Source of the DNA: Pseudacidovorax intermedius
GTDB taxonomy: Bacteria > Pseudomonadota > Gammaproteobacteria > Burkholderiales > Burkholderiaceae_C
Assembly: GCF_001476815.1 (NCBI RefSeq)
Contig: NZ_LDSL01000096.1
Span: 1-64,000, forward strand
Direction of reading: 5' to 3'
DNA: 64,000 nucleotides
A model generated the notes under the pieces. That model did no database searches and was not told where the DNA came from. It saw only the letters and a list, made by a program, of their open reading frames with translations. The position numbers and the translations under genes are program-made. Shown here one piece after another: positions 7,657 through 19,901 of this stretch; the stretch's first letter is position 1; the number at the start of each line of letters is the position of its first letter.

Positions 7657-8451
7657 ATGCGTGCCAGGTTCAAAGACAAGGTGGTCCTGATCTTCGGCGC
7701 CGGTTCGTCCGGGCCGGGTTGGGGCAATGGCAAGGCGGCGGCTGCCGTGTACGCCCGCGAGGGCGCGCTCGTGGTCGGAGTTGATCTGCATCTGGACGCT
7801 GCCCAGGAGACCGAGGCCGCACTGCGGCAGGAAGGCCTGAGCATGACCGCGATGGCGGCCGATGCCAGCACCAGTGCCGAGGTAGCCGACGTGGTGGCGC
7901 AGACACTGAAGCTTCATGGCCGCATCGACGTGCTTCACAACAACGTGGGCGTCACCGTCATGGGAGATCCGGTGGAGCTGAGCGAGCAGGACTGGCAGCG
8001 CAGCCTGGACATCAACCTGTCCAGCGCCTTCCTCACGTGCAAGCACGTGCTGCCGGCCATGCTGGCGCAGGAAAGCGGCGCCATCGTCAACATCTCCTCG
8101 CTGGCGTCGCTGCAGATCAACCAGTACCCCTACTTCGCCTATCAGACGGCCAAGGCCGGTCTGAACCATTTCACCCGCGCCATCGCGGTGCGTTATGCGG
8201 CGCGAGGCATCCGCGCCAATGCAGTGCTGCCAGGCGTGATGGACACGCCGCTGATCTACCAGCAGATCGCGGGCAACTTCGAGGATGTCGAAGCCATGCG
8301 GCGTGCGCGCCATGCCGCCAGTCCCATGGGCCGCATGGGCACCGCATGGGACGTGGCGAACGCCGCCGCCTTCCTGGCCTCTGACGAGGCCGCGTACATC
8401 ACCGGCGTGGTGCTGCCTGTGGACGGAGGCAAAAGTTGCGCCGCGCGCTAG
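7657..8451 (+). CDS. Short-chain dehydrogenase/reductase (SDR)
   Basis: Classical SDR oxidoreductase, 264 residues. The cofactor-binding glycine motif is GAGSSGPGWGNG (14-25), longer than the usual TGxxxGIG. NNVG follows, and the catalytic Ser...Tyr-x3-Lys is SSLASLQ...YQTAK with Tyr162 and Lys166. The ending (AAYITGVVLPVDGG) is standard. An aspartate ends the second beta strand (VVGVDLHLD), pointing to NAD rather than NADP. The start ATG has GGAGACGAGG just upstream. It stands alone behind its own promoter and converges with the IclR gene; the substrate is unknown but could be a ketone or alcohol of the neighbouring ThDP-enzyme pathway. Confidence 0.93.
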   Translation: MRARFKDKVVLIFGAGSSGPGWGNGKAAAAVYAREGALVVGVDLHLDAAQETEAALRQEGLSMTAMAADASTSAEVADVVAQTLKLHGRIDVLHNNVGVTVMGDPVELSEQDWQRSLDINLSSAFLTCKHVLPAMLAQESGAIVNISSLASLQINQYPYFAYQTAKAGLNHFTRAIAVRYAARGIRANAVLPGVMDTPLIYQQIAGNFEDVEAMRRARHAASPMGRMGTAWDVANAAAFLASDEAAYITGVVLPVDGGKSCAAR

Positions 8452-8503: not shown

Positions 8504-9364
8504 CTACGCCGGCTGGTCCTCCGCCATGCGCGCGGCCAGCAATCGGGCTTCGGCCTGCAGGAGCCCGGCGATCTCCAACGCCCGAGGCCGGGCCATGCGG
8601 TCGGTGATGGCAGCCACGCTCAACGAGGCCAGCACCTGTCCCTTGGCATCGACCACTGGCACGCCCACCGCCAGCATGCCGGGCACGATGCGGCCGGTGT
8701 TGAAGGAGAAGCCGTCGCGCCGGGTCTGCGTGACCAGCTCGCGGATCACCGTCGGCGTGTGGGAAGGAAAGTCCTCCAGCCATCGGAGATTGCGCTCCAG
8801 CACCTTGGCCACGTCGGCATCGGGCATGGCCGACAGCAGCGCAAGGCTGCCGGCACCCACGCCCAGTGGGCGCCGGTCGCCCACATCCAAGGTAAGGGTA
8901 CGAATCGGAAAACTGCCCGTGGCGCGACCGATGCACACGGCGGCCGTGCCTTCGGTGACTTGGGCGAAGACCGTGTCTTGCGTGGCTTCGGCCAGCCGTT
9001 GCAGCGAGGGCTGGCAGGCCGCGACGCGCCACTGTGCAAGCGCCCCCGCCGCGAGCATGGCGACCGCGCTCCCCAGTCGATACCTGCGGCTGCCGATGTC
9101 CTGGAAGGCCAGCCCGGTGTCGACCAGGGCCGCCAGAAGACGGTGGGTGGTCGACTTGCCCAGGCCCGTGCTTTCCATGAGCTCCGTGAAGCTGGCCCCC
9201 TGGTGCGGATGCTGGGCCAGCGCGCGCAGCATGCGCGCGGCGCGATCAATCACCTTGACGGGGGGCTCGCGGCTGTCCTCGTCCTGCGAGCCGGCCGGTC
9301 TTTCTGCGGATGCCATGGGAAGGGGCGTTGCGCCCTGTTCTGCGGAAGCGCCGATGGTAGCCAT
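8504..9364 (-). CDS. IclR-family transcriptional regulator
   Basis: 286 residues from the ATG at 9364 (MATIGASAEQ); a second ATG at 9316 (MASAERPAG) is possible, and neither has a strong ribosome site. The N-terminal winged helix (VIDRAARMLRALAQ ... LGKSTTHRLLAALVDTGL) is followed by an IclR effector domain (RTLTLDVGDRRPLGVGAGSLALLS, and GVPVVDAKGQVLASLSVAA near the end). It is divergent from the operon starting at 9443, with 78 bases between, and convergent to the SDR gene, the usual layout for an IclR regulator of a catabolic operon. Confidence 0.92.
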   Translation of the reverse strand: MATIGASAEQGATPLPMASAERPAGSQDEDSREPPVKVIDRAARMLRALAQHPHQGASFTELMESTGLGKSTTHRLLAALVDTGLAFQDIGSRRYRLGSAVAMLAAGALAQWRVAACQPSLQRLAEATQDTVFAQVTEGTAAVCIGRATGSFPIRTLTLDVGDRRPLGVGAGSLALLSAMPDADVAKVLERNLRWLEDFPSHTPTVIRELVTQTRRDGFSFNTGRIVPGMLAVGVPVVDAKGQVLASLSVAAITDRMARPRALEIAGLLQAEARLLAARMAEDQPA

Positions 9365-9442: not shown

Positions 9443-10276
9443 ATGACCAGGCAGACTCCCCTGAACCCGCTGGTCGTGGCCGACTCGGTCACCAAGCTGC
9501 AGGCCGACGCTCGTGGCGCCGTGGCGGTGGCGGCCTCGCACGCCGGCCTGTTTGCCGCGCACGAGGCCCTGGCGGCGGGCGTGGTCGCTGTCGTGCTCAA
9601 CGACGCAGGCGTAGGGCTGGCACAGGCTGGCATCGGCGGGCTGGCACTGTGTGACCGCCACGGCGTGCCCTGTACGGCCGTCGACCATCGCAGCGCACGC
9701 ATCGGCGACGGCGCCGACCACCTGCGGCGCGGCCGGCTCTCGCATGTCAACAGCGCCGCGGCGCACCTGGGCCTGCACGTTGGCATGTCAGTGGCCGACG
9801 CCATCGAGCGATTGCGGATTGCCAAACTGGCCGCTGCCGATCCCGGCGATCCACCCCAGGAAGCCCGCGAGAACCGTGCGCTGCCCGGCGCGCTGCGGAC
9901 GCTGGTGCTGATGGATTCGGCCTCACTGGTTACACCGCGGGACGCGGGTGCGGTGGTGCTGACCGGCTCCCATGGCGGCCTGCTCGGCGGCCAGGCCTCG
10001 ACCGCCATCAAGGTGGATGTCTTCGCCGCGGTCTACAACGATGCAGGCGTGGGCATGGACGACGCCGGCATCTCGCGCATGCCGGCGCTGGACGCGCGCG
10101 GCATTGCGGGCGCCACCGTCGCGGCCGGCAGCGCCCGCATCGGTGATGGCCGCTCCACCTACGAGAGCGGCGTGCTCAGCCACATCAACCACCGTGCCCG
10201 CGCGCTGGGCGCGCGCGTGGGCATGCGCGCCGATGCCTTTGCGGACCTCATGGGCCGCGCGACGGCGGGCACCTGA
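9443..10276 (+). CDS. Uncharacterised protein made of two tandem copies of one domain
   Basis: 277 residues, not recognised as a characterised family. Reading the protein shows an internal duplication: copy A (about 14-123) and copy B (about 159-270) share the same ordered motifs, SHAG (32-35)/SHGG (176-179), NDAGVG (53-58)/(199-204), SARIGDG (84-90)/(230-236) and SHVN (100-103)/SHIN (246-249), at an offset of about 145 residues. There is no signal peptide or membrane segment. The conserved His, Asn, Asp and Arg residues look like an active or ligand site. AGGAGG lies nine bases before the ATG. It is the first gene of the operon with the ThDP enzyme, alcohol dehydrogenase and Bug receptor, so a role in the same small-molecule pathway is likely; the reaction is unknown. 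Confidence 0.85.
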   Translation: MTRQTPLNPLVVADSVTKLQADARGAVAVAASHAGLFAAHEALAAGVVAVVLNDAGVGLAQAGIGGLALCDRHGVPCTAVDHRSARIGDGADHLRRGRLSHVNSAAAHLGLHVGMSVADAIERLRIAKLAAADPGDPPQEARENRALPGALRTLVLMDSASLVTPRDAGAVVLTGSHGGLLGGQASTAIKVDVFAAVYNDAGVGMDDAGISRMPALDARGIAGATVAAGSARIGDGRSTYESGVLSHINHRARALGARVGMRADAFADLMGRATAGT

Positions 10277-10328: not shown

Positions 10329-12080
10329 ATGTCCAACGTGAACGCATCCACAGCCGGCACCCTCGTCATGAGCGGCGGCGAAGCCATCGCCCGCATCATC
10401 AAGGCATTCAATGGCGGGCCCATGTTCGGAATGGGCGGCTTCCAGGTACTCCCGCTGTACGAGGCCGCCCGTGTGCTGGAGATGGAGCACCATCTGATCC
10501 ACGACGAGCGCAATGCCGTCTTCGTGGCCGATGCCTATGCCAAGGTTTCCGGCCGCGTGGGCCTGGCGGACGCCACGGTCGGCCCCGGTGCCACCAACAT
10601 GCTCACCGCATTGGCCGAGTCCCTTAACGCCGGCACGCCCGTGGTCTGTGTGGTGGGCGACACGCACCGGGACCACTCCTGGAAGAACATGACGCAGGAG
10701 TCCCGCCAAGTCGATGCACTGCGGCCCATGTGCAAGGAGATCATTCGCATCGAGTCCATCAAGCGCGTGCCTGAGCTGATGCGCCGTGCTTTCATGGTGG
10801 CGACCACGGGCCGCCCGGGGCCGGTGGTGGTCGACGTGCCGGAAGACCTGATGCACGACACGCATACGTTCGACTTGGCGGACTTCGCGGTCAACCCGAT
10901 CTACGAGGCCGCGCCCGCCCTGCGCAGCCGGCCCGATGGCGACTCGGTGGCGCAGGCGGCCGCCCTCATTGCTGCAGCGCAAAAACCCATCATCCTCGCT
11001 GGCGGTGGCGTGCACCTTTCCGGCGCCGCGCCGACCCTGCATGCCTTCGCGCAGGCCCTGAATGTCCCCGTGGCCCACACCCTCACGGGCAAGGGGGCCA
11101 TCCCCTGCACCGACCCGCTGAGTGCCGGCCTGTTCGGCCGCTACGACCGCATCGCCAACGCGCTGATCGACGAGAGCGACCTCATCGTGGTCGTGGGCTG
11201 CAAGCTCGGCGAGATCGCCACCAAGCGCTACACCGTGCCGGCACCGGGCAAGCGCATCGTGCACATCGACATCGTGGCCGAAGAGTTCGGGCGCACGCTG
11301 ATGCCCGAGATCATGCTGTGGGGCGATGCACGCCTGGCGCTGCAGGACCTGCACGCCGCGCTTGGCGACCAGGCCGCCGCCGTCCGCCAGCGCCTGTCGG
11401 ACTGGGCGGCCGAAGTGCCCCGGCGCATGGCCAGGTGGCGCGACGAGGTGGCCGAGCGTCTGAATTCCCAGGACCGGCCGATCAACGTGGCCAGGCTCAT
11501 CACCGCCATCAACAAGGTGCTGCCGGGCGACGGCTACCTGGTGGCCGACGGCGGCTTCGCCGCGCACTGGGCCGGGCTGCTCTTCGACACCAAGGAGGCA
11601 GGCCGGCGCTTCGTGCCCGACCGGGGCTTCGCCTCCATCGGCTACGGCCTGCCCGGCGCCATCGGGGCGGCGCTCGCGGCACCTGGCAAGACGGTGTTCA
11701 GCATGACCGGCGACAGCGGCTTCTGCATGGTGATCGGCGACCTGGAGACGGCCAAGCGGCTGAAGCTCGACATCACCCTCATCGTGGTGAACAACGCTGC
11801 CTCGGGCTACGTCAAGGCGCTGCAACACCTGGTCTACGGCGCGGGCAAGCACATCGCGGCCGACCTGGAGGAGGTCAACTTCGCCCGCGTGGCCGAAGCC
11901 TTCGGCTGCACCGGCATCCGGGTCGAAGATCCGGAGCAGATCGAGGCTGCGCTGCGCCAGGCCATGGCGACCAAGGGGCCGGTAGTGCTCGATGTGGTCG
12001 TTACCCGCGACCCTGCCAAGATGCTGCCCGGCGTGGACAGCCGCGCGGCAGTCATCAAGAAAGGCGACCGCATCGCCTGA
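10329..12080 (+). CDS. ThDP-dependent enzyme, acetolactate synthase-like
   Basis: 583 residues with the three-domain architecture of the acetolactate synthase/benzoylformate decarboxylase superfamily. The catalytic glutamate that activates the cofactor is Glu60 in HHLIHDERNA. The ThDP-Mg motif runs from GDSG (461-464) to NN (488-489); the usual GDG is GDS. The central domain is typical (KPIILAGGGVHLSGA, PVAHTLTGKGAIP). It makes or breaks C-C bonds next to a keto group; synthase, decarboxylase or carboligase activity cannot be told apart by eye. It follows the duplicated-domain gene by 52 bases and precedes an alcohol dehydrogenase, which could act on the aldehyde or hydroxyketone made. Confidence 0.92.
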   Translation: MSNVNASTAGTLVMSGGEAIARIIKAFNGGPMFGMGGFQVLPLYEAARVLEMEHHLIHDERNAVFVADAYAKVSGRVGLADATVGPGATNMLTALAESLNAGTPVVCVVGDTHRDHSWKNMTQESRQVDALRPMCKEIIRIESIKRVPELMRRAFMVATTGRPGPVVVDVPEDLMHDTHTFDLADFAVNPIYEAAPALRSRPDGDSVAQAAALIAAAQKPIILAGGGVHLSGAAPTLHAFAQALNVPVAHTLTGKGAIPCTDPLSAGLFGRYDRIANALIDESDLIVVVGCKLGEIATKRYTVPAPGKRIVHIDIVAEEFGRTLMPEIMLWGDARLALQDLHAALGDQAAAVRQRLSDWAAEVPRRMARWRDEVAERLNSQDRPINVARLITAINKVLPGDGYLVADGGFAAHWAGLLFDTKEAGRRFVPDRGFASIGYGLPGAIGAALAAPGKTVFSMTGDSGFCMVIGDLETAKRLKLDITLIVVNNAASGYVKALQHLVYGAGKHIAADLEEVNFARVAEAFGCTGIRVEDPEQIEAALRQAMATKGPVVLDVVVTRDPAKMLPGVDSRAAVIKKGDRIA

Positions 12081-12097: not shown

Positions 12098-13171
12098 ATG
12101 CAGAAGCCCTCCGACGCACCCGGCACGGCCGGCGACAGCTACTCACTGGTCATGAAGACCGGCCCCGAATGGTCCGACCTGGCGCGGGTCCGGCGCCCGC
12201 TGAGTGCACCCAGGCCGGGCAGCGCCCTGGTGAAGATCCACCGCGCCGCCGTATGCGGCACAGACCTGCACATCCTGAAATGGAACGACTGGGCGCAGCA
12301 GCATTACCGCCTGCCCCTGCCGCTGGGGCATGAGTTCAGCGGCGTCATCGCGGCCATCGGCGCGGATGACGCGTCCGCGCACCATGGCCTCGCGGTAGGC
12401 GACAGCGTTACGGTCGAAACGCACTTGGCCTGCGGCCACTGCGACCAATGCCTGCGTGACCGCGGCCACACGTGCCTGAACCTGAAGGTCTTCACCCGGC
12501 TGGGCGAGGGCGCCTTCGCCGAATACGCCACGGTGCCCCTGGCCATGCTGCGGCGCCTGCCGGCCGGCATGTCGCACCGCCACGGCTGCCTGCTCGAGCC
12601 GCTGGGCATCGCGCTGCGGGCGGTGGAGGAGTGCCGGGTCACCGGCGGCGTCCTGTTCGTCAGCGGCTGTGGCCCCATCGGCCTGCTGGCCGTGGCGGCG
12701 GCGCGGCAGACGGGCGTGGCACGCGTGCTGGCCGCCGACCTCTCGCCCGCACGCCGCGAACTGGCGCTGGCGCTGGGCGCCGAGGTAGCGGTCGACCCGC
12801 GCGACGGAAGCGATCGCGCGCTGGTGGGCACAGGCGTGGACGCGGTGATCGAGGCCAGCGGCAGTCCCGCTGCCATCGAGAACGCTCTGAACCTGCTGCG
12901 GCCGGGCGGCACGCTGATGCTGGCGGGCATGCCCGCCCAGAACCTGGCGCTGGACCTGTCGCGCCACGTGGTGCTGCGCGAGATAGCGATACGCGGGGTC
13001 TATGGACGGCACCTGCAGGGCACCTGGGCACGTCTGCAGGAGATCGCGCCGCGCATGCAGTCCGCGCTGGACCGGCTCATCACCCACGAGTTTGCGCAGG
13101 ACGACTTCGCCGAGGCGTTCCGCGTTGCGATGGACGGACAGGCCGGCAAGGTCGAACTGATTTTTTCCTGA
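12098..13171 (+). CDS. Zinc-dependent alcohol dehydrogenase (MDR family)
   Basis: 357 residues. Catalytic zinc ligands are Cys53 (VCGTDLH) and His78-Glu79 (LGHEF); the structural zinc site is Cys112, Cys115, Cys118 and Cys126. The Rossmann glycine motif SGCGPIGLLAV is near 188-198 and is followed by AADLSPARRELA, whose acidic residue favours NAD. It resembles threonine/sorbitol dehydrogenases. It starts 17 bases after the ThDP enzyme, and the two probably handle successive steps. The substrate is not determined. Confidence 0.92.
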   Translation: MQKPSDAPGTAGDSYSLVMKTGPEWSDLARVRRPLSAPRPGSALVKIHRAAVCGTDLHILKWNDWAQQHYRLPLPLGHEFSGVIAAIGADDASAHHGLAVGDSVTVETHLACGHCDQCLRDRGHTCLNLKVFTRLGEGAFAEYATVPLAMLRRLPAGMSHRHGCLLEPLGIALRAVEECRVTGGVLFVSGCGPIGLLAVAAARQTGVARVLAADLSPARRELALALGAEVAVDPRDGSDRALVGTGVDAVIEASGSPAAIENALNLLRPGGTLMLAGMPAQNLALDLSRHVVLREIAIRGVYGRHLQGTWARLQEIAPRMQSALDRLITHEFAQDDFAEAFRVAMDGQAGKVELIFS

Positions 13172-13197: not shown

Positions 13198-14181
13198 ATG
13201 AGCCTTCACCCCACCCGCCGGGACACCATGAAACTTCTGGCCGCTGCCACCGCACTGCCCTGGGCCGATGCGCGCGCGGACGACTTTCCGAACAAGCCGA
13301 TCCGCATGATCCTGCCCTTTCCTCCGGGCGGGACCACCGACGTCGTGGGCCGGGTCTTCGGAGAGGCCTATGGCAAGGTGCTGGGGCAGCCGGTGATCAT
13401 CGACAACCGGGCTGGCGCTGGAGGATCGGTGGGCGCGCGTGCCATCGCTCAGGCGGCGCCCGACGGCTACACGATCGGCCTGGTCACCATCAGTACCCAC
13501 GGCACCAACTCGGCGGTCTACAAATCCTTGCCTTATGACCCGGTGAAGGACTTCACGGCCATCACCAAGCTGTCTGCCTTTCCTGGGGTGATCGCGGTCA
13601 ACCCCGCGTTTCCTGCAAAGAACTTCAAGGAGTTCATGGAGACGCTCAAGGCTGCGCCGGGCCGCTACAGCTATGCCTCGTCCGGTGCTGGCGGCGCCAC
13701 CAACCTCTGCATGGAATTGTTCAAGTCCAAGACCGGCGTCTTCATCACGCACATTCCCTACCGCGGCTCTGGCCCGGCCATCAACGACGTGATCGCCGGG
13801 CAGGTGCCGATCCTTTGGGATGCGCTGCCCTCGGCGCTGCCATTCATCAAGGCAGGCAAGCTGGTGGCAATCGGTGTGGCGAGCGACCGCCGCAGTCCGC
13901 AACTGCCCGATGTGCCCACCTTTACCGAACTGGGCGTCAAGGACTACGAGCCTGACCTGTGGAACGGCATCGTGGGCCCGGCCAGGATTCCGCCGGAGAT
14001 CTTCAAGCGCCTGCAAAGTGCCGCGGTCGAGGCGGCCGGCAATCCCGAGTTCAAGGCGCGCATGAGCGAACTTGGCGCCAACGTCGTGGCCAGTAACTCG
14101 CCGGGCTTCAGCCAAGCCATCGCCAAGGACGTCGCGCTGTGGAAGGAAGTAGCGAAGTTCGCAAACATCTCGCTGGATTGA
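13198..14181 (+). CDS. Bug-type tripartite tricarboxylate receptor, periplasmic
   Basis: 327-residue periplasmic solute-binding protein of the Bug/TctC family. The N-terminus has a twin-arginine-like start (TRRDTMKLLAAA) and a cut after ARA. Family hallmarks are PIRMILPFPPGGTTD, QPVIIDNRAGAGG, APDGYT, the THIPYRGSGPA loop and GIVGPARIPPE. AAGGAG lies ten bases before the ATG. No TctA/TctB genes are near, as is usual for the many orphan Bug receptors of Burkholderiales. As last gene of the IclR-linked operon it probably captures that pathway's substrate. Its end is nine bases from the convergent defence-like gene. Confidence 0.93.
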   Translation: MSLHPTRRDTMKLLAAATALPWADARADDFPNKPIRMILPFPPGGTTDVVGRVFGEAYGKVLGQPVIIDNRAGAGGSVGARAIAQAAPDGYTIGLVTISTHGTNSAVYKSLPYDPVKDFTAITKLSAFPGVIAVNPAFPAKNFKEFMETLKAAPGRYSYASSGAGGATNLCMELFKSKTGVFITHIPYRGSGPAINDVIAGQVPILWDALPSALPFIKAGKLVAIGVASDRRSPQLPDVPTFTELGVKDYEPDLWNGIVGPARIPPEIFKRLQSAAVEAAGNPEFKARMSELGANVVASNSPGFSQAIAKDVALWKEVAKFANISLD

Positions 14182-14190
14182 TCGATTGAG

Positions 14191-16029
14191 CTATCGCGTC
14201 CGGACGCACAGCCCTGATAGCACCAGGACCTGCTCAGCAACGATTACATCGCTCTCTATGGTGAAGCCGATAGCCCGCAACGCTGTGAACACCGACGCGG
14301 CTTCCGCGCGATGCCGCTCGGCGACGATCAATACGTCTTGAGCGCCCGCGTTCGTGAAGCGAAGGTCCGGGGGCCGCTTGTCGCCGTAGCGAGCCATCAA
14401 AAGCACAATGTTAGGCGGCTCGAATGGAAAGTGACGCCAAGCAATACGCTGGGAAACCTGCTCAATCGCTGCGGTGATGGCCTGATCCTTCACGGCTTTT
14501 GCTTGCCGCGCTCGCCCTGCCTGCACGAGCTTGATGCGTCCGCTGCGAACCTTGGCCAGGCGCTCCTTCTCTGTCCTGATATTGCGCATCTTCGCGTAGT
14601 GGGCTTCGGTGCCGTAGCACGCCAGGGCCGGCGCCGCCAACGCGGGAATCAGCAATGTGTGCAGCCGCTGCCGTTGGGGATCACGCAGAAATTTTGGGTT
14701 TTCCGCTGCAACCTCTTTCTTGATCGACGCGCAGCATCGGTCGTACGCGTGCTGCTGGTCATTCGTCATCTCCGGCCTTCGGGAGGCGAGTGCGGCCATC
14801 AAGTCAATTGCGTACCGGCTGTTGTCAGAGGGGCTGGCGGCGCGTGCCAAGCTTGTCAGCGCCTTGTCTCCGTACTCCGACCATTCTCCCCTGCGTGCCA
14901 TTACAAGTTCGTAGAAGCTGCCGAAGCGGGACTCCAGCGCCGAGGCTGGTTTGGTCCATATCTGGCGCTCTCGCATGGCTGCCACCACTGATCGGTGGCG
15001 TGACGCGCTTGGTTCGATGGAGAAGGTTGTGTCGCCTGACCAAAGGGCGAGCATGATCTTGACGTAGGCGCGAATGAGGTCAGTGTCAGTGCTGTTTGCT
15101 ACCCACCTTTTGACCTCCTCTGCCTTCTGCTGCCGCTGCCTTTGTTCTTGGGCGAGCCTCTTGGCTTGCCTTTCCTGTTCACGCTGCTGCGCTTCCAACT
15201 GCTGAGCAATCGCATTGGCCTTTGCCGATAGGCGGCGCTTTGCGTCTTCGTGGGCAAGGGGAAAGTAGATCCACTGCTTTGCCACAGTGCTCGAACAGAC
15301 CAAGTCCTCGATCTCTCTTGCGGGTACGTGCCCAACCCGATCAAAGTGACTCGTCACAATCTCGATGCACGCGACTTTCGCGGCTCGGATCTTGGCTGCC
15401 TTCTGCACATCGACCAGATGCGTTACTGCCCCTTCGATCATCAAGTCGAAAGTCGGCTCTGCACAGTGGGCGCGCCGGGCGCGACAGATGACATCGGGCA
15501 CCATGCTTCCAAGCTGCCTTTCCAGCCGCACGTCTTCGAGCACGAGCGCGCACGCTGGCCAGCTTGCCGATTCGATCGTCTCACCGCCATCGGGCATCAC
15601 TTCGCTCTCGGTCGCCCGATAGGCCGGGACGCTGATAGAGCCGCGTTTGGCAATGGCTTTCTTGATCAGGAAGTGGAGAAGTGTCTCGTTAAACTGCTTT
15701 CCCGATAGGCCCTCAAGCCATTCGGCCGGAATGCCGCCAAGGAGCTCCGCCTCACCATCGGCGAGCAGCTGATCTGCGTCTGCAGATGCTCTTTCATCGT
15801 CCCAGTGGCGATGCCATGAAACTTTGCTGTCAGGTGCGCGCAGATGAGCAAGGATTTCCTCCTTGCCCCAACCTACGATCCTGGGGTCACAGGCCTGTGC
15901 CAGAGAAAGCACGCAGCTCGAACCATGCTGCAGATCGAAAGTTTGCACAGTCTTTACCGTGACGGCGAGCTGCCGTCCGTCGTCCAGTTCAAGAAGGGCG
16001 GTCCAGTCATCGACCCAGGTTCGGTTCAA
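14191..16029 (-). CDS. CoiA-like protein, large (nuclease-like) part
   Basis: 612 residues read from a TTG at 16029 that overlaps the stop of the upstream frame (TTGA). Residues 177-224 (VPDV..., MIEGAVTHLVDVQK, ...VACIEI) resemble the PD-(D/E)xK-type core of CoiA-like proteins, with candidate residues Asp179, Glu199 and Lys210. A highly charged coiled coil follows (about 278-320), then a long unrecognised C-terminal region. The upstream frame (16026-16442) supplies the CoiA-like zinc N-terminus, so the two pieces look like one gene split by a one-base shift around 16060-16085. The region is visibly richer in A/T than its neighbours. The CoiA assignment is moderate; the function could be in competence, recombination or defence. 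Confidence 0.7.
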   Translation of the reverse strand: MNRTWVDDWTALLELDDGRQLAVTVKTVQTFDLQHGSSCVLSLAQACDPRIVGWGKEEILAHLRAPDSKVSWHRHWDDERASADADQLLADGEAELLGGIPAEWLEGLSGKQFNETLLHFLIKKAIAKRGSISVPAYRATESEVMPDGGETIESASWPACALVLEDVRLERQLGSMVPDVICRARRAHCAEPTFDLMIEGAVTHLVDVQKAAKIRAAKVACIEIVTSHFDRVGHVPAREIEDLVCSSTVAKQWIYFPLAHEDAKRRLSAKANAIAQQLEAQQREQERQAKRLAQEQRQRQQKAEEVKRWVANSTDTDLIRAYVKIMLALWSGDTTFSIEPSASRHRSVVAAMRERQIWTKPASALESRFGSFYELVMARRGEWSEYGDKALTSLARAASPSDNSRYAIDLMAALASRRPEMTNDQQHAYDRCCASIKKEVAAENPKFLRDPQRQRLHTLLIPALAAPALACYGTEAHYAKMRNIRTEKERLAKVRSGRIKLVQAGRARQAKAVKDQAITAAIEQVSQRIAWRHFPFEPPNIVLLMARYGDKRPPDLRFTNAGAQDVLIVAERHRAEAASVFTALRAIGFTIESDVIVAEQVLVLSGLCVRTR

Positions 16030-16442
16030 TACCGTGGCGGCCTCTGACCCGCTGAAGGTGGCGACGAGACTTCCTTTCCGTTCCCAAGCTTGCGCATCGT
16101 TGGATGTCGCCGCTCTGGCAGATAGATCACGTCTTGCTCAACATAGAGTTGGATGGCGAGCAGTTGCGCGACCTTTCGAAGGCAGCGTGCTTGGGCGGCG
16201 TCTACGCAGCGATGCTTGAAATGCTTGCGTTGCACCCCTCGGCGCACGAAATGCTCAGGCGGCTTACTGACATTGACGGCCAACAAGCTCTGCCCGCATG
16301 CGCGGCACACGCATGCGCAAGCTGCGCCGTTTTCGTGAGCCTCCAGCAACCCCACGTGTACAAACTTTGTCGTGTCTTCGGCACGGACTGCCCAGAGCAT
16401 CAGTGGCTCTTCACAGGGCGGCGAAGACTGGGTTGCGGCCAT
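16026..16442 (-). CDS. CoiA-like zinc-binding N-terminal part
   Basis: 138 residues from ATG 16442; a start at 16400 (MLWAVRAEDT) would be closer to the family. It carries CRAC (Cys46, Cys49) and HFKH (His74, His77), the Cys-Cys-His-His arrangement found at the N-terminus of CoiA-like proteins, then a YLPERRH stretch that in the family leads into the nuclease core. It ends at a TGA overlapping the TTG of the 612-residue frame. Continuing the larger frame upstream of that TTG also gives plausible protein back to about 16085, so a frameshift mutation, a sequencing error or genuine translational coupling are all possible. Confidence 0.6.
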   Translation of the reverse strand: MAATQSSPPCEEPLMLWAVRAEDTTKFVHVGLLEAHENGAACACVCRACGQSLLAVNVSKPPEHFVRRGVQRKHFKHRCVDAAQARCLRKVAQLLAIQLYVEQDVIYLPERRHPTMRKLGNGKEVSSPPSAGQRPPRY

Positions 16443-16615
16443 GACTGTCTGCTCTTTACTTCGATTCGCGGACGGAGATGGACTGTCCTGTGTCGATCCA
16501 ATCGGATGATTCTGAGCGAGTGGTGGTCCGTGCCACGGCAGCGGTGGCCGCTTGAATAGTCATCGGCAAGGCTGCGTCAGCGAAGTCGTGCGCGAGGTTC
16601 TGGTTCAATAACGTC

Positions 16616-17416
16616 ATGGACATCCACGTATTGAATACTGACAGGGGCCACGGCGCGGTTGGGGCAGATGCCGAGTGGCTCCGTAGAGGGGTCGCAGTAA
16701 CAAGCGGTGGCGAGAACTACGCGGCCAAACTCCGCCAGATCCGAAGTGGCGACTGGATTCTGATGTGGCTGAATGGTAGGGGAGTGGTCGCTGCGGGGCG
16801 AGCTGTTGACGATCGCGTTCAGCACGTGTACCCGCCGAATGTCGTGAACTCTTCCGAGCCTGAGGAGTATCACCGCCTGATGGACTGGCGACTTGACCTG
16901 CGCAGTAATCCAATCTCAGCTGCGGAGTTCACTGCGCTTTCGGGGGTTCGGCCAACATCCGCTCGCGTGCGTATTCGCGATCCGGAGCGCAGAGCGGCAG
17001 TACTGGCACGGCTGGCTGAGCTTGAGAGGACCGCAGACCCGACGCAGTACGAGATGATTGCTGATTCCATGTTGGCATTGGGGCCTGTCTCCAAGCCCAT
17101 CGGCTTTCCAATTCCTACGCGAATCGAAGGCACGACAAACTGCTTTTATCGATCACCATGGGTGCGAGCTTGGACGCTGCAGCGAGCCGGGCGTCACTGC
17201 GAACTGTGCAAGTCTGCCGCGCCATTTTTGAAAAGCTCAGGACTTCCTTATTTGGAGTCGCACCACGTCGTCCCTATGAGCGAAGGTGGAGGTGATACAC
17301 CTGAGAACACGGCGGCACTATGTCCTAATTGCCATCGAGAGTTGCATTGCGGCGCAGAACGGATTGGGAAGCGTGAAGAGCTGAAACGGATCGTGTTGGG
17401 CCAGGAAATGAAATAG
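16616..17416 (+). CDS. HNH endonuclease with N-terminal PUA/EVE-like region
   Basis: 266 residues. The C-terminal HNH motif is clear: CELC (195-198), HH (216-217), Asn231, and CPNCH (236-240), giving a four-cysteine zinc knuckle with His217/Asn231/His240 as the catalytic set. The N-terminal 90 residues (LRQIRSGDWILMWLNGRGVVAAGRAV) look like a PUA/EVE-type fold that can read modified bases, as in McrA-like restriction enzymes. That reading is inference. It is divergent from the CoiA-like pair with a 173-base gap, and its composition is low-GC like its neighbours. A role in restricting modified foreign DNA is plausible. Confidence 0.85.
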   Translation: MDIHVLNTDRGHGAVGADAEWLRRGVAVTSGGENYAAKLRQIRSGDWILMWLNGRGVVAAGRAVDDRVQHVYPPNVVNSSEPEEYHRLMDWRLDLRSNPISAAEFTALSGVRPTSARVRIRDPERRAAVLARLAELERTADPTQYEMIADSMLALGPVSKPIGFPIPTRIEGTTNCFYRSPWVRAWTLQRAGRHCELCKSAAPFLKSSGLPYLESHHVVPMSEGGGDTPENTAALCPNCHRELHCGAERIGKREELKRIVLGQEMK

Positions 17417-18377
17417 GGTAGTCATGACAGCGTGCCTCCAAAAGCACGCGAGGCTGACGGCGGCGCAGCCTTAGATATTGCTGGAGGGCACCGACTGCCG
17501 CATGCCCGCCAGGACGCACACGCCACCGCTGGCAGCCTGAGCCCTGAGGCCGAGGGCCCGCATCTCCACACGAGCACGCGTAACGCAGCGCCGAACCTCG
17601 GGCACATTACGGCCCGTGCCCAACCCCAGCGCCCATCCCGACCGACTGCTCGACGACCCACAGTGGCTCAATGGCGAGATCAAGCGGATGCAGCTGATGG
17701 TGCAGAAGCTGACGCTTTAGCTGGCACGTCAGCAGCGCGCGCGATTCGGCGCGAGCGGCGAACGCCACGCCGACCGCCAGGCAAGCCTGATCAAGGCAGA
17801 GCTCGCGCGGGCAGCGCGCCCCGCAGCCCCCTCGTCGGAGCCGGCACCCGCCGTCGCTGACCCGCCGTCGAAACCCGTATCAGTCTCTTCGAGAGCTCCG
17901 CTCGGTTGAAGGAGATTACTCCTGGTTTGCTGCTGCGCTTACACACCGCCGCTAGTCGTTCGACGCTGCTGCTTGGCGAACTTAGGTGGCGGCACGATGC
18001 CGCAGTAGCGCAACTACGGAGGCCGGATTTGATCCCATACAGCGCACCGATTGTTGTGCCAACGAGCCCGGCGCATGGCCCTAGCTCTCGTGCAGATACC
18101 GGAACCGCCTGCGCACAGCCGAGTGACTCCTTCTCGCAGCGTTTGCGAATTCTCCGGTCCATAAAGTTCGCCATGCTTCGACCCTCCCAAGCCGCGATCA
18201 GAGCAGCGCCGCCTTTGTAGTCGGGTCGAACCGGAAGGCGGCCGCTGCGCTTCGGGACGGTCTGATGGCCCGTTTGCTCCTGCGATATGCATGCAATACG
18301 ATTGTCAAGCCGGCACTTCGAAGTCGAGCGCGCGGCCCCGAGCACCGGGGCGATAAACCAGTTTTGGATAGGAGACC
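17417..18377. other. About 960 bases without an intact gene
   Basis: Holds the IS66 remnant described separately and little else. A minus-strand frame starting near 18174 (MANFMDRRIRKRCEKE) is protein-like for about 50 residues, but no family is recognised and no ribosome site is evident. Confidence 0.5.
17646..17860 (+). pseudogene. IS66-family transposase (TnpC) N-terminal remnant
   Basis: Translation gives LNGEIKRMQLMVQKLTL, an amber stop at 17718-17720, then LARQQRARFGASGERHADRQ. This matches the start of IS66 TnpC proteins, where a leucine-rich helix is followed by an RxxFGxxSE motif (RARFGASGE here). The rest of the transposase and its partners are absent, so this is a short decayed piece marking past insertion beside the defence genes. 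Confidence 0.6.
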
Positions 18378-19901
18378 ATGGCGAGCACGCCGGAGGAGGA
18401 CAGCGACGACGACATCGACGGCCTATCGGAGGAGGCGGGCAGCGGGCCGGAACGCCCCGAGTCCGAACAAGAGTGCGCCGTCAGCCTTGGCGTAGTCGAG
18501 ATCGGCGACCAAGAGCTGGCCGAGGTCTTCGCGCACGGCGAGCTCGACGGCGAGGCCGGTGTCCAATCCGAGCGGCAAGTCCTTATCGCGCACGTGAGCG
18601 CCGACCAGATCATCATGACTCCCGTAGTCGCCGCCTCCTACCGCGATGACTTCCTAGGCCCCAAGTACCGTCAGATCCGACGCATCCGCATCCCGGGCGA
18701 GTGGGAGGTACCCAAGGACGTCTACGGCTTCGACGAATTGCTGGAGCAGCTTCCGATAGGCTTCTCCCGCCACGCGCGAAGAGGGCTCGGGCTGCGCTTC
18801 GAACATCGACTGATTATCGAGGCGATCGAGGAAGCCACCGACGCAACGGAACTGCTTCTGGTGGAAGGCGACGCCGCATTCATCTCAGGAGACACCTTTA
18901 CGCTCGGCCTGAGGCGGTTCGAGCGCGCCCGAAAGGCGCTGGATCAAATCGGACGGCGCTCGCAGCGGCGCGCTCTCGAGGACCGCAGGATGCTCGCGCA
19001 CAACGAAGTCGTGCATCCTGCTGACGCCGAGCGCTTTCCGCAGCAGGAGCGGCAGCCGCAGCCGGGCGAGATCTATAAACTCGTCCAGCTGAGCTTGCGC
19101 GAGCCGACCAGATCGCAGAACGACCGCAGCGCGGCCACCGACCTGGTTCGTCGCGACGTGCCGCAGATCGCGCGAGAGAACCCGCGGGCGCTGCTCGAGT
19201 TGCGTTCGGAGATCGAGCGCGTGACCCTCGCCCAGCTTATAGAGCGGTTCGATGAGAATCTGCGGCGCGACCCCGATGAACGCATCTGGCAACGCTTCTT
19301 CGAGGAGCATCCGTTCGTTCTGGCGATGGCGTTCCCCTACCCCGTGCTGTTGGTGCGCGGCCAGGCTCACGTCGGAGGCGTGACTATGGATGGGCGCGGC
19401 GAGAGCATCGCCGACTTTCTGTTCCGGCAGCGGCTCACCGGCGGCGTGGCCCTCGTCGAAATCAAGACGACTCGCACGCGACTGCGCCAAACGAACCCAT
19501 TCCGCGGGAACGTCTACGCGGCGCACACGGAGCTCTGCGCCGCGATTTCGCAGGTACTGGACCAGCGCTCGGAGCTGACAATGAACTTCCACGCCCGCGC
19601 GCGCAGCCCAGGCATGGAGGACGCGCACGTAGGGCACGTGCAATGCCTGGTGATCGTTGGCCGCGACCCAGACTCCGCGGACAAGCGCCGGTCTCTCGAC
19701 TTGTTCCGGCACGCCACGAAAGACGTGGCGGTGGTCACGTTCGACGAACTCCTCGAGAAGCTCCGGGGAATCCATCAACTGATGTCTCCGCTCGGCGCGG
19801 AAGCTCGCGGCGCGATCCGTCCGGAATCGGCGGATGGCAAGGCCGGCGCCGTTCCTCCGGCGCCAGACGCTCCCCTAGCGCCGACAGCGCCTACGGAATA
19901 A
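18378..19901 (+). CDS. sduA: Shedu-type nuclease (SduA, DUF4263)
   Basis: 507 residues. The C-terminal half carries the DUF4263/Shedu core: an ERIWQRFFEEHP lead-in, SIADFLF with Asp346, VALVEIK with Glu361 and Lys363 (a PD-(D/E)xK arrangement, D-x14-E-x-K), and the hallmark NPFRGNVY...AISQVLDQR segment. Shedu is a known single-gene anti-phage system in which SduA is a nuclease. The first 290 residues are the variable sensor region and include an acidic N-terminus (EEDSDDDIDG); the last 50 are Ala/Pro-rich. TAGGAG precedes the ATG at suitable spacing. It lies downstream of the HNH gene on the same strand, with the IS66 remnant between. Confidence 0.85.
   Translation: MASTPEEDSDDDIDGLSEEAGSGPERPESEQECAVSLGVVEIGDQELAEVFAHGELDGEAGVQSERQVLIAHVSADQIIMTPVVAASYRDDFLGPKYRQIRRIRIPGEWEVPKDVYGFDELLEQLPIGFSRHARRGLGLRFEHRLIIEAIEEATDATELLLVEGDAAFISGDTFTLGLRRFERARKALDQIGRRSQRRALEDRRMLAHNEVVHPADAERFPQQERQPQPGEIYKLVQLSLREPTRSQNDRSAATDLVRRDVPQIARENPRALLELRSEIERVTLAQLIERFDENLRRDPDERIWQRFFEEHPFVLAMAFPYPVLLVRGQAHVGGVTMDGRGESIADFLFRQRLTGGVALVEIKTTRTRLRQTNPFRGNVYAAHTELCAAISQVLDQRSELTMNFHARARSPGMEDAHVGHVQCLVIVGRDPDSADKRRSLDLFRHATKDVAVVTFDELLEKLRGIHQLMSPLGAEARGAIRPESADGKAGAVPPAPDAPLAPTAPTE

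Follow-up and report, generated by a model that had tools for sequence, protein, structure and literature searches.

A two-domain protein family co-inherited with two kinds of ThDP enzymes and its possible role in an undescribed proteobacterial carboxylate pathway

The stretch of Pseudacidovorax intermedius DNA analyzed here (64,000 nucleotides; hereinafter, the window) encodes, at positions 9443-10276, a two-domain protein that represents an uncharacterized family inherited, in many bacteria, together with ThDP enzymes. Members of the same type as this protein share their inheritance with one discrete subfamily of acetolactate-synthase-like ThDP enzymes and, in the sample from Alphaproteobacteria, also with the alpha and beta subunits of a second ThDP enzyme, a relative of pyruvate dehydrogenase E1; that these genes constitute a co-inherited module is very probable. 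As the best explanation, which we offer tentatively, the family protein acts in carboxylate catabolism as a small soluble enzyme serving a carbon-carbon-cleaving one, e.g., as an isomerase or tautomerase. In a broader sense, this new enzyme family could possibly form the core of a widespread, undescribed carboxylate pathway of proteobacteria that uses two different ThDP enzymes, namely the acetolactate-synthase-like one and an E1 pair seen without E2 or E3 alongside, with cousins serving RuBisCO-like and other carbon-carbon-cleaving enzymes in bacteria and haloarchaea.

The features of the window to which the analysis refers are the following:

7657-8451, plus strand: SDR oxidoreductase gene, beyond the IclR gene, in the identical place in two Pseudacidovorax relatives (L031, L032)
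8504-9316, minus strand: divergent IclR-type regulator (PF09339 and PF01614)
9443-10276, plus strand: two-domain protein of the uncharacterized family, 277 aa (ATG-to-stop open frame; halves alike at E 1e-19)
9470-9811, plus strand: Domain 1 (N-half) of this protein, residues 10-123, with SHAG, NDAGVG, SARIGDG and SHVN (profile bounds)
9860-9868, plus strand: linker E-x-R, residues 140-142 (E in 52/63 and R in 58/63 two-domain proteins)
9902-10246, plus strand: Domain 2 (C-half), residues 154-268, with SHGG, NDAGVG, SARIGDG and SHIN (profile bounds)
10329-12080, plus strand: acetolactate-synthase-like ThDP enzyme of a discrete subfamily, 583 aa (three TPP_enzyme domains: PF02776, PF00205, PF02775)
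12098-13171, plus strand: zinc alcohol dehydrogenase (by model scores, nearest to threonine 3-dehydrogenase models, below their cut-offs)
13198-14181, plus strand: TctC/Bug-type substrate-binding receptor (PF03401, 253 bits)
16616-17416, plus strand: HNH endonuclease gene (PF01844, 41.5 bits, cut-off 21.4)
18378-19901, plus strand: Shedu-type anti-phage defence protein, 507 aa (PF14082 SduA_C, 76.6 bits, cut-off 27)

From the 9443-10276 gene downward, the intergenic gaps are 52, 17 and 26 bases, which makes the arrangement operon-like; that this gene heads the operon is our inference, because no promoter-like site was found in the stretch between it and the IclR gene. The first-pass annotation had placed the gene next to a divergent IclR gene, a ThDP enzyme, an alcohol dehydrogenase and a Bug receptor, and domain or model matches bear out each of these neighbors. 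The closest named relatives, from Pseudacidovorax sp. RU35E (93% identity) and NFM-22 (91%), are both found in an identical gene order, and the source genome contains a single family copy at E <= 1. Farther downstream, the G+C content is 0.58-0.61 at 13500-17500 versus 0.69-0.71 in the preceding operon, and a 612-aa frame at 14191-16029 (minus strand) matches no Pfam family at E <= 1e-5; given the low G+C and this frame, the 13500-17500 region looks like acquired DNA. The HNH gene lies close to the Shedu gene, and the two perhaps belong to one defence or mobile island.

The two halves of the 277-aa protein, compared as sequences, are similar far beyond chance: in a BLASTP alignment of half versus half, 51 of 120 positions are identical (43%; 65.9 bits, E 1e-19), in agreement with the initial description of the protein as two copies of one domain. 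The four motifs that had been noted about 145 residues apart do recur in the same order, with a measured spacing of 144 for SHAG (32-35) and SHGG (176-179), and of 146 for NDAGVG (53-58 and 199-204), SARIGDG (84-90 and 230-236) and SHVN (100-103) versus SHIN (246-249). Structure prediction yielded a mean pLDDT of 29.6 with three near-identical rows as input, and of 40.6 (pTM 0.39) with six half-protein rows; the latter model found no match at E <= 0.001 with Foldseek, a result given no weight at this model quality.

Beyond a borderline match to DUF1805 (considered below), the family is absent from the libraries searched. NCBIfam assigned the 277-aa protein to no family, and PDB searches returned nothing credible with the single protein, with a 29-row family profile (best E 0.18) or with a 99-row profile (best E 0.089). 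No ACT domain or other acetolactate-synthase small-subunit domain of the IlvN type was found in Pfam at E <= 1, nor any curated isomerase family, including the hydroxypyruvate isomerase type, in Pfam or NCBIfam at the same threshold. Several matches were set aside: those to DinB/IMS (in Pfam, below the cut-off, and also profile versus PDB), taken as a short common motif; DepH (E 0.089) in the PDB profile search, which is isolated and weak; and isolated weak NCBIfam matches of single family members, such as ProV (E 0.00016) and LarB. No characterized relative of the family was thus found in Pfam, NCBIfam or the PDB, by sequence or profile. The literature that our search covered, to which most subscription papers did not belong, contained nothing on this protein family.

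Relatives were detected in the taxonomic family (37 of 200 genomes), the order (33 of 399) and the phylum (6 of 398) of the source, tallies that count the source genome itself, and in one class that is presumably Alphaproteobacteria (36 of 337). Thirteen plasmid records hold the family, including five haloarchaeal and three Rhodococcus ones, and the product is given as 'hypothetical protein' in the 12 of them that are annotated; phages had no family match at E <= 0.001, and viral sequences likewise contained no relative. The family comes in two forms, a one-domain form of about 130 aa and a two-domain form of about 270 aa, which account for 47 and 63, respectively, of the genes in 110 gathered loci. 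These loci include near-copies (e.g., the source locus with L031 and L032, and L171 with L172 and L178), their genes were called by a custom script other than a standard gene finder, and the Pfam and NCBIfam scans covered selected representatives of the neighbor clusters. A few of the genes called as one-domain might be truncated or disrupted two-domain genes: L130 is close to the end of its contig, and the neighbors of L089 are those of the two-domain L088. The member encoded on an Aminobacter aminovorans plasmid (L038:7653-8606) has an N-terminal extension that, by eye, resembles a signal peptide; the other members read seem cytoplasmic.

The duplication behind the two-domain form is old, and each half has since diverged in its own way. 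A tree of 104 non-redundant domains unites most C-halves (36 of 42) in one starred group and most N-halves (35 of 41) in another, with Domain 1 of the 9443-10276 protein placed among N-halves of other species. A third starred group comprises six N-halves and six C-halves, which split by half (both halves of L038, L039, L082, L198 and L200, the N-half of L098 and the C-half of L199), and the 21 one-domain proteins in the tree sit with the main N-halves, at a weakly supported fork. With 116 columns and a bootstrap that has not settled, the details are unsure, and the tree is compatible with one duplication or with two. The separate N-half and C-half clades rule out that the duplication is a recent, local event in the source lineage.

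Conservation was assessed in 71 earlier-gathered proteins, 41 of the one-domain and 30 of the two-domain form. The one-domain proteins (n = 41) retain S-H-G-G (100%), the N and D (100% and 98%) and the third and fourth histidines (98% and 95%). In the C-halves, the first histidine is invariant (100%), and the third and the fourth are mostly gone (H in 17% and 27%), so that a catalytic set common to all members would be putative; the N-halves have the first, third and fourth histidines in 80%, 63% and 57%, respectively. This uneven loss would fit one site common to two unlike halves. Among all 63 two-domain proteins, H177 is conserved in 62, D200 in 63, N103 in 62 and N249 in 61.

Within seven genes of the family gene, an acetolactate-synthase-like ThDP gene of one cluster is present in 23 of the 63 two-domain loci and in none of the 47 one-domain loci; by chance, any acetolactate-synthase-like paralogue would fall within this distance of a given gene with a probability of about 0.03 (estimated from 21 genomes, assuming a gene per kilobase). 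The corresponding counts are 24/63 and 3/47 for an E1 alpha and beta pair, 32/63 versus 3/47 for either kind of ThDP gene and 15/63 versus 0/47 for both kinds. Thus, the association with a ThDP partner recurs beyond chance in other genomes (for proximity, by a test that counts the loci as independent, although they are not); it is not constant, and the notion that the family gene always accompanies a ThDP enzyme is refuted by the 31/63 two-domain and 44/47 one-domain loci with neither kind. A RuBisCO-like gene is found nearby in nine of the 110 loci (3/63 two-domain, 6/47 one-domain), and a citryl-CoA-lyase-like gene accompanies a family member in five (one of these scanned); in haloarchaea, RuBisCO-like and kinase genes are also seen alongside. 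Within the source's taxonomic family, one-domain genes adjoin branched-chain-type ABC genes, an AMP-binding ligase and a flavin-oxidoreductase fusion, company that suggests CoA-linked aromatic degradation. At some loci, e.g., L085 and L086, the family gene stands without a clear catabolic operon.

The ThDP protein of the source operon scores 383 bits against the biosynthetic acetolactate synthase model, for which the cut-off is 538, and stays below every curated cut-off among 25 listed of 49 families; among solved structures, plant acetolactate synthases come closest to it (E 2e-68). The designation 'acetolactate-synthase-like' in the first-pass annotation is therefore sound for the fold family and need not extend to the reaction. 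Across 21 genomes selected because they show this arrangement, the best match to the source ThDP protein is the copy adjacent to the family gene, with 56-68% identity in the 20 other genomes; among the matches listed (6-17 per genome), the next one does not exceed 37%, except for a fragment in G1168 (38%), which defines the ThDP protein as a member of a discrete subfamily. Among the 337 genomes, the family is present in 36, the ThDP subfamily in 28 and both in 26 (Fisher p 1.9e-28, with kinship ignored and the two counts taken as drawn from identical genomes, given that parameters and handles agree). These 26 genomes span 15 numbered families; the two genes lie at most 10 kb apart in 20 of them and not in the other six. 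In G1008 and G1038, which carry the ThDP subfamily, the 19.5 kb surrounding the ThDP gene contain no family gene, and 10 of the 36 family-positive genomes are without the subfamily, three of these (G1138, G1223 and G1226) with the one-domain form.

The E1 beta subunit, sought in 270 genomes, gave 21 matches at E <= 1e-90, 19 of them with at least 61% identity, and all 19 genomes concerned (that of the query included) also have the family and the ThDP subfamily. The two weaker matches (51 and 53%, in G1081 and G1173) are in genomes without the family; the co-occurrence of E1 beta and the family has p 2.6e-24, or 5.3e-22 if the weaker matches are counted against it, where the p values and the family-positive membership assume that the 270 genomes lie within the 337, as judged by the order of the genome handles. 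Neither G1008 nor G1038 belongs to the 19; their presumed inclusion in this search follows from the same order. The nearest solved structures to the E1 pair are pyruvate and 2-oxo acid dehydrogenases, the beta subunit of L097 matches NCBIfam PRK09212 above its cut-off, and within the cluster, identity to the L093 subunits is no lower than 48% for alpha and 54% for beta. No E2 or E3 gene was recognized beside the E1 pair in the loci read, the neighbors of which were partly scanned; in L251, the order is IclR, E1 alpha, E1 beta and TRAP P-Q-M. In the source genome, an E1 beta of 59% identity is encoded on another contig. In L184 and L197, a single acetolactate-synthase-like gene lies between two E1 alpha/beta pairs, with the family gene adjoining; the two E1 betas of each genome are 63 and 61%, and 63 and 59%, identical to that of L171. 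In L250 and L253, an E1 pair is located away from the family gene, and its neighbors are a gene resembling that for 3-hydroxyisobutyrate dehydrogenase and a third gene that recurs (367-390 aa). In betaproteobacteria, the parts of the module occur separately: in G882, the family and the ThDP gene are accompanied by an E1 beta of only 41%, and G633, G832, G742 and G588 have the family and the E1 pair without the subfamily ThDP gene (no match at E <= 1e-80 in three of the four; 33% in G588).

That the family protein is catalytic seems to us somewhat likely; the narrower assignment as an isomerase or tautomerase is less likely than not. Bug and TRAP receptors import carboxylates, and ThDP enzymes form or break bonds adjacent to a carbonyl. 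The family protein, the ThDP enzyme and the dehydrogenase would together convert an acid imported via a Bug or TRAP receptor, with the family protein preparing or finishing the substrate of the carbon-carbon-cleaving enzyme, e.g., by isomerizing or tautomerizing a hydroxy-oxo acid. The conserved S-H, N-D, S-A-R and S-H-N stretches might lie at strand ends, around a site common to both halves, and in the one-domain form the corresponding site would lie between two subunits. The recurrence of the family beside RuBisCO-like and citryl-CoA-lyase-like genes fits an enzyme that serves different carbon-carbon-cleaving enzymes, and a small enzyme in this position would most simply interconvert isomers or tautomers of their hydroxy-oxo acid. 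The co-inheritance and the conserved polar residues (H177, D200, N103 and N249) also speak for this reading; against it count the 10 family-positive genomes that lack the ThDP subfamily, the two with the subfamily and no family gene close by, the separated parts in betaproteobacteria, the two-domain loci with neither ThDP gene, the loci without an evident catabolic operon and the histidines missing from most C-halves.

The same neighborhoods bear on the possibility that the family protein is a non-catalytic, regulatory or assembly subunit of the ThDP enzymes, analogous to IlvN. In 12 loci, the family gene immediately precedes the acetolactate-synthase-like gene; this position and the near-strict co-inheritance with ThDP enzymes are compatible with such a partner, but the absence of an ACT or other small-subunit domain at E <= 1, the separation of the genes in six of the 26 genomes and the members that adjoin unrelated RuBisCO-like and citryl-CoA-lyase-like enzymes, which one subunit would hardly fit, make this an improbable reading. 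Somewhat less probable still is a role in uptake (with TRAP, Bug or branched-chain-type ABC receptors) and not in ThDP chemistry, the protein being a sensor or accessory that binds carboxylates: TRAP receptors are encoded within seven genes in 23 of the 110 loci (14 two-domain and 9 one-domain) and Bug receptors in 29 (14 and 15), and branched-chain-type ABC genes at several one-domain loci, but transport genes are common in catabolic operons, these are raw counts, not set against a background rate, and the link to two ThDP subfamilies would be left unexplained.

With comparably low probability, the family could be a divergent branch of DUF1805 (PF08827), which includes Bacillus subtilis YunC, with the function of that family. 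The whole protein just passes the Pfam gathering cut-off (29.9 bits versus 29.5), and some family domains scanned singly also match (9/29 at E <= 0.1, 9/99 at E <= 0.001); however, the match is limited to profile positions 32-64 of 64, about half of the domain, the matching stretch also resembles DinB polymerases, 90 of the 99 domains have no match at 0.001 and, even if true, the relationship would yield no mechanism. A DUF1805 search matched none of 21 genomes and, among 14 control genomes, Bacillus subtilis and Methanosarcina acetivorans.

The co-inheritance with two ThDP subfamilies has practical consequences: it is a concrete handle, with three gene sets to co-express and a short list of residues to change, and could open a pathway in which enzymes automatically annotated as acetolactate synthase or pyruvate dehydrogenase E1 do something else.

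Among known systems, DUF1805 resembles the family in that the C-terminal half of its model matches residues 92-124; the first half of the model is unmatched, and the SH(A/G)G-NDAGVG core and the tandem duplication lie outside the match. The loci with a RuBisCO-like cluster, usually accompanied by a kinase and a PGDH_C gene, resemble the D-apionate degradation genes OiaX and OiaK, but at the one locus scanned (L103) the scores are 447 (OiaX) and 505 (OiaK) against cut-offs of 700 bits, so that these are not the named equivalogs, and none of these genes is in the source operon. Acetolactate synthase with its small subunit, IlvN, also pairs a partner with an enzyme of this kind, although the source enzyme is below the 538-bit cut-off and its partner has no ACT domain. 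Finally, hydroxypyruvate isomerase works beside glyoxylate carboligase, in one operon. The family protein has no isomerase-family match at E <= 1, and the source ThDP enzyme scores 279 bits against a glyoxylate carboligase cut-off of 791; nevertheless, both operons combine an acetolactate-synthase-like ThDP enzyme, a small partner gene and a dehydrogenase nearby, and by this analogy the family protein may play a role akin to that of hydroxypyruvate isomerase.
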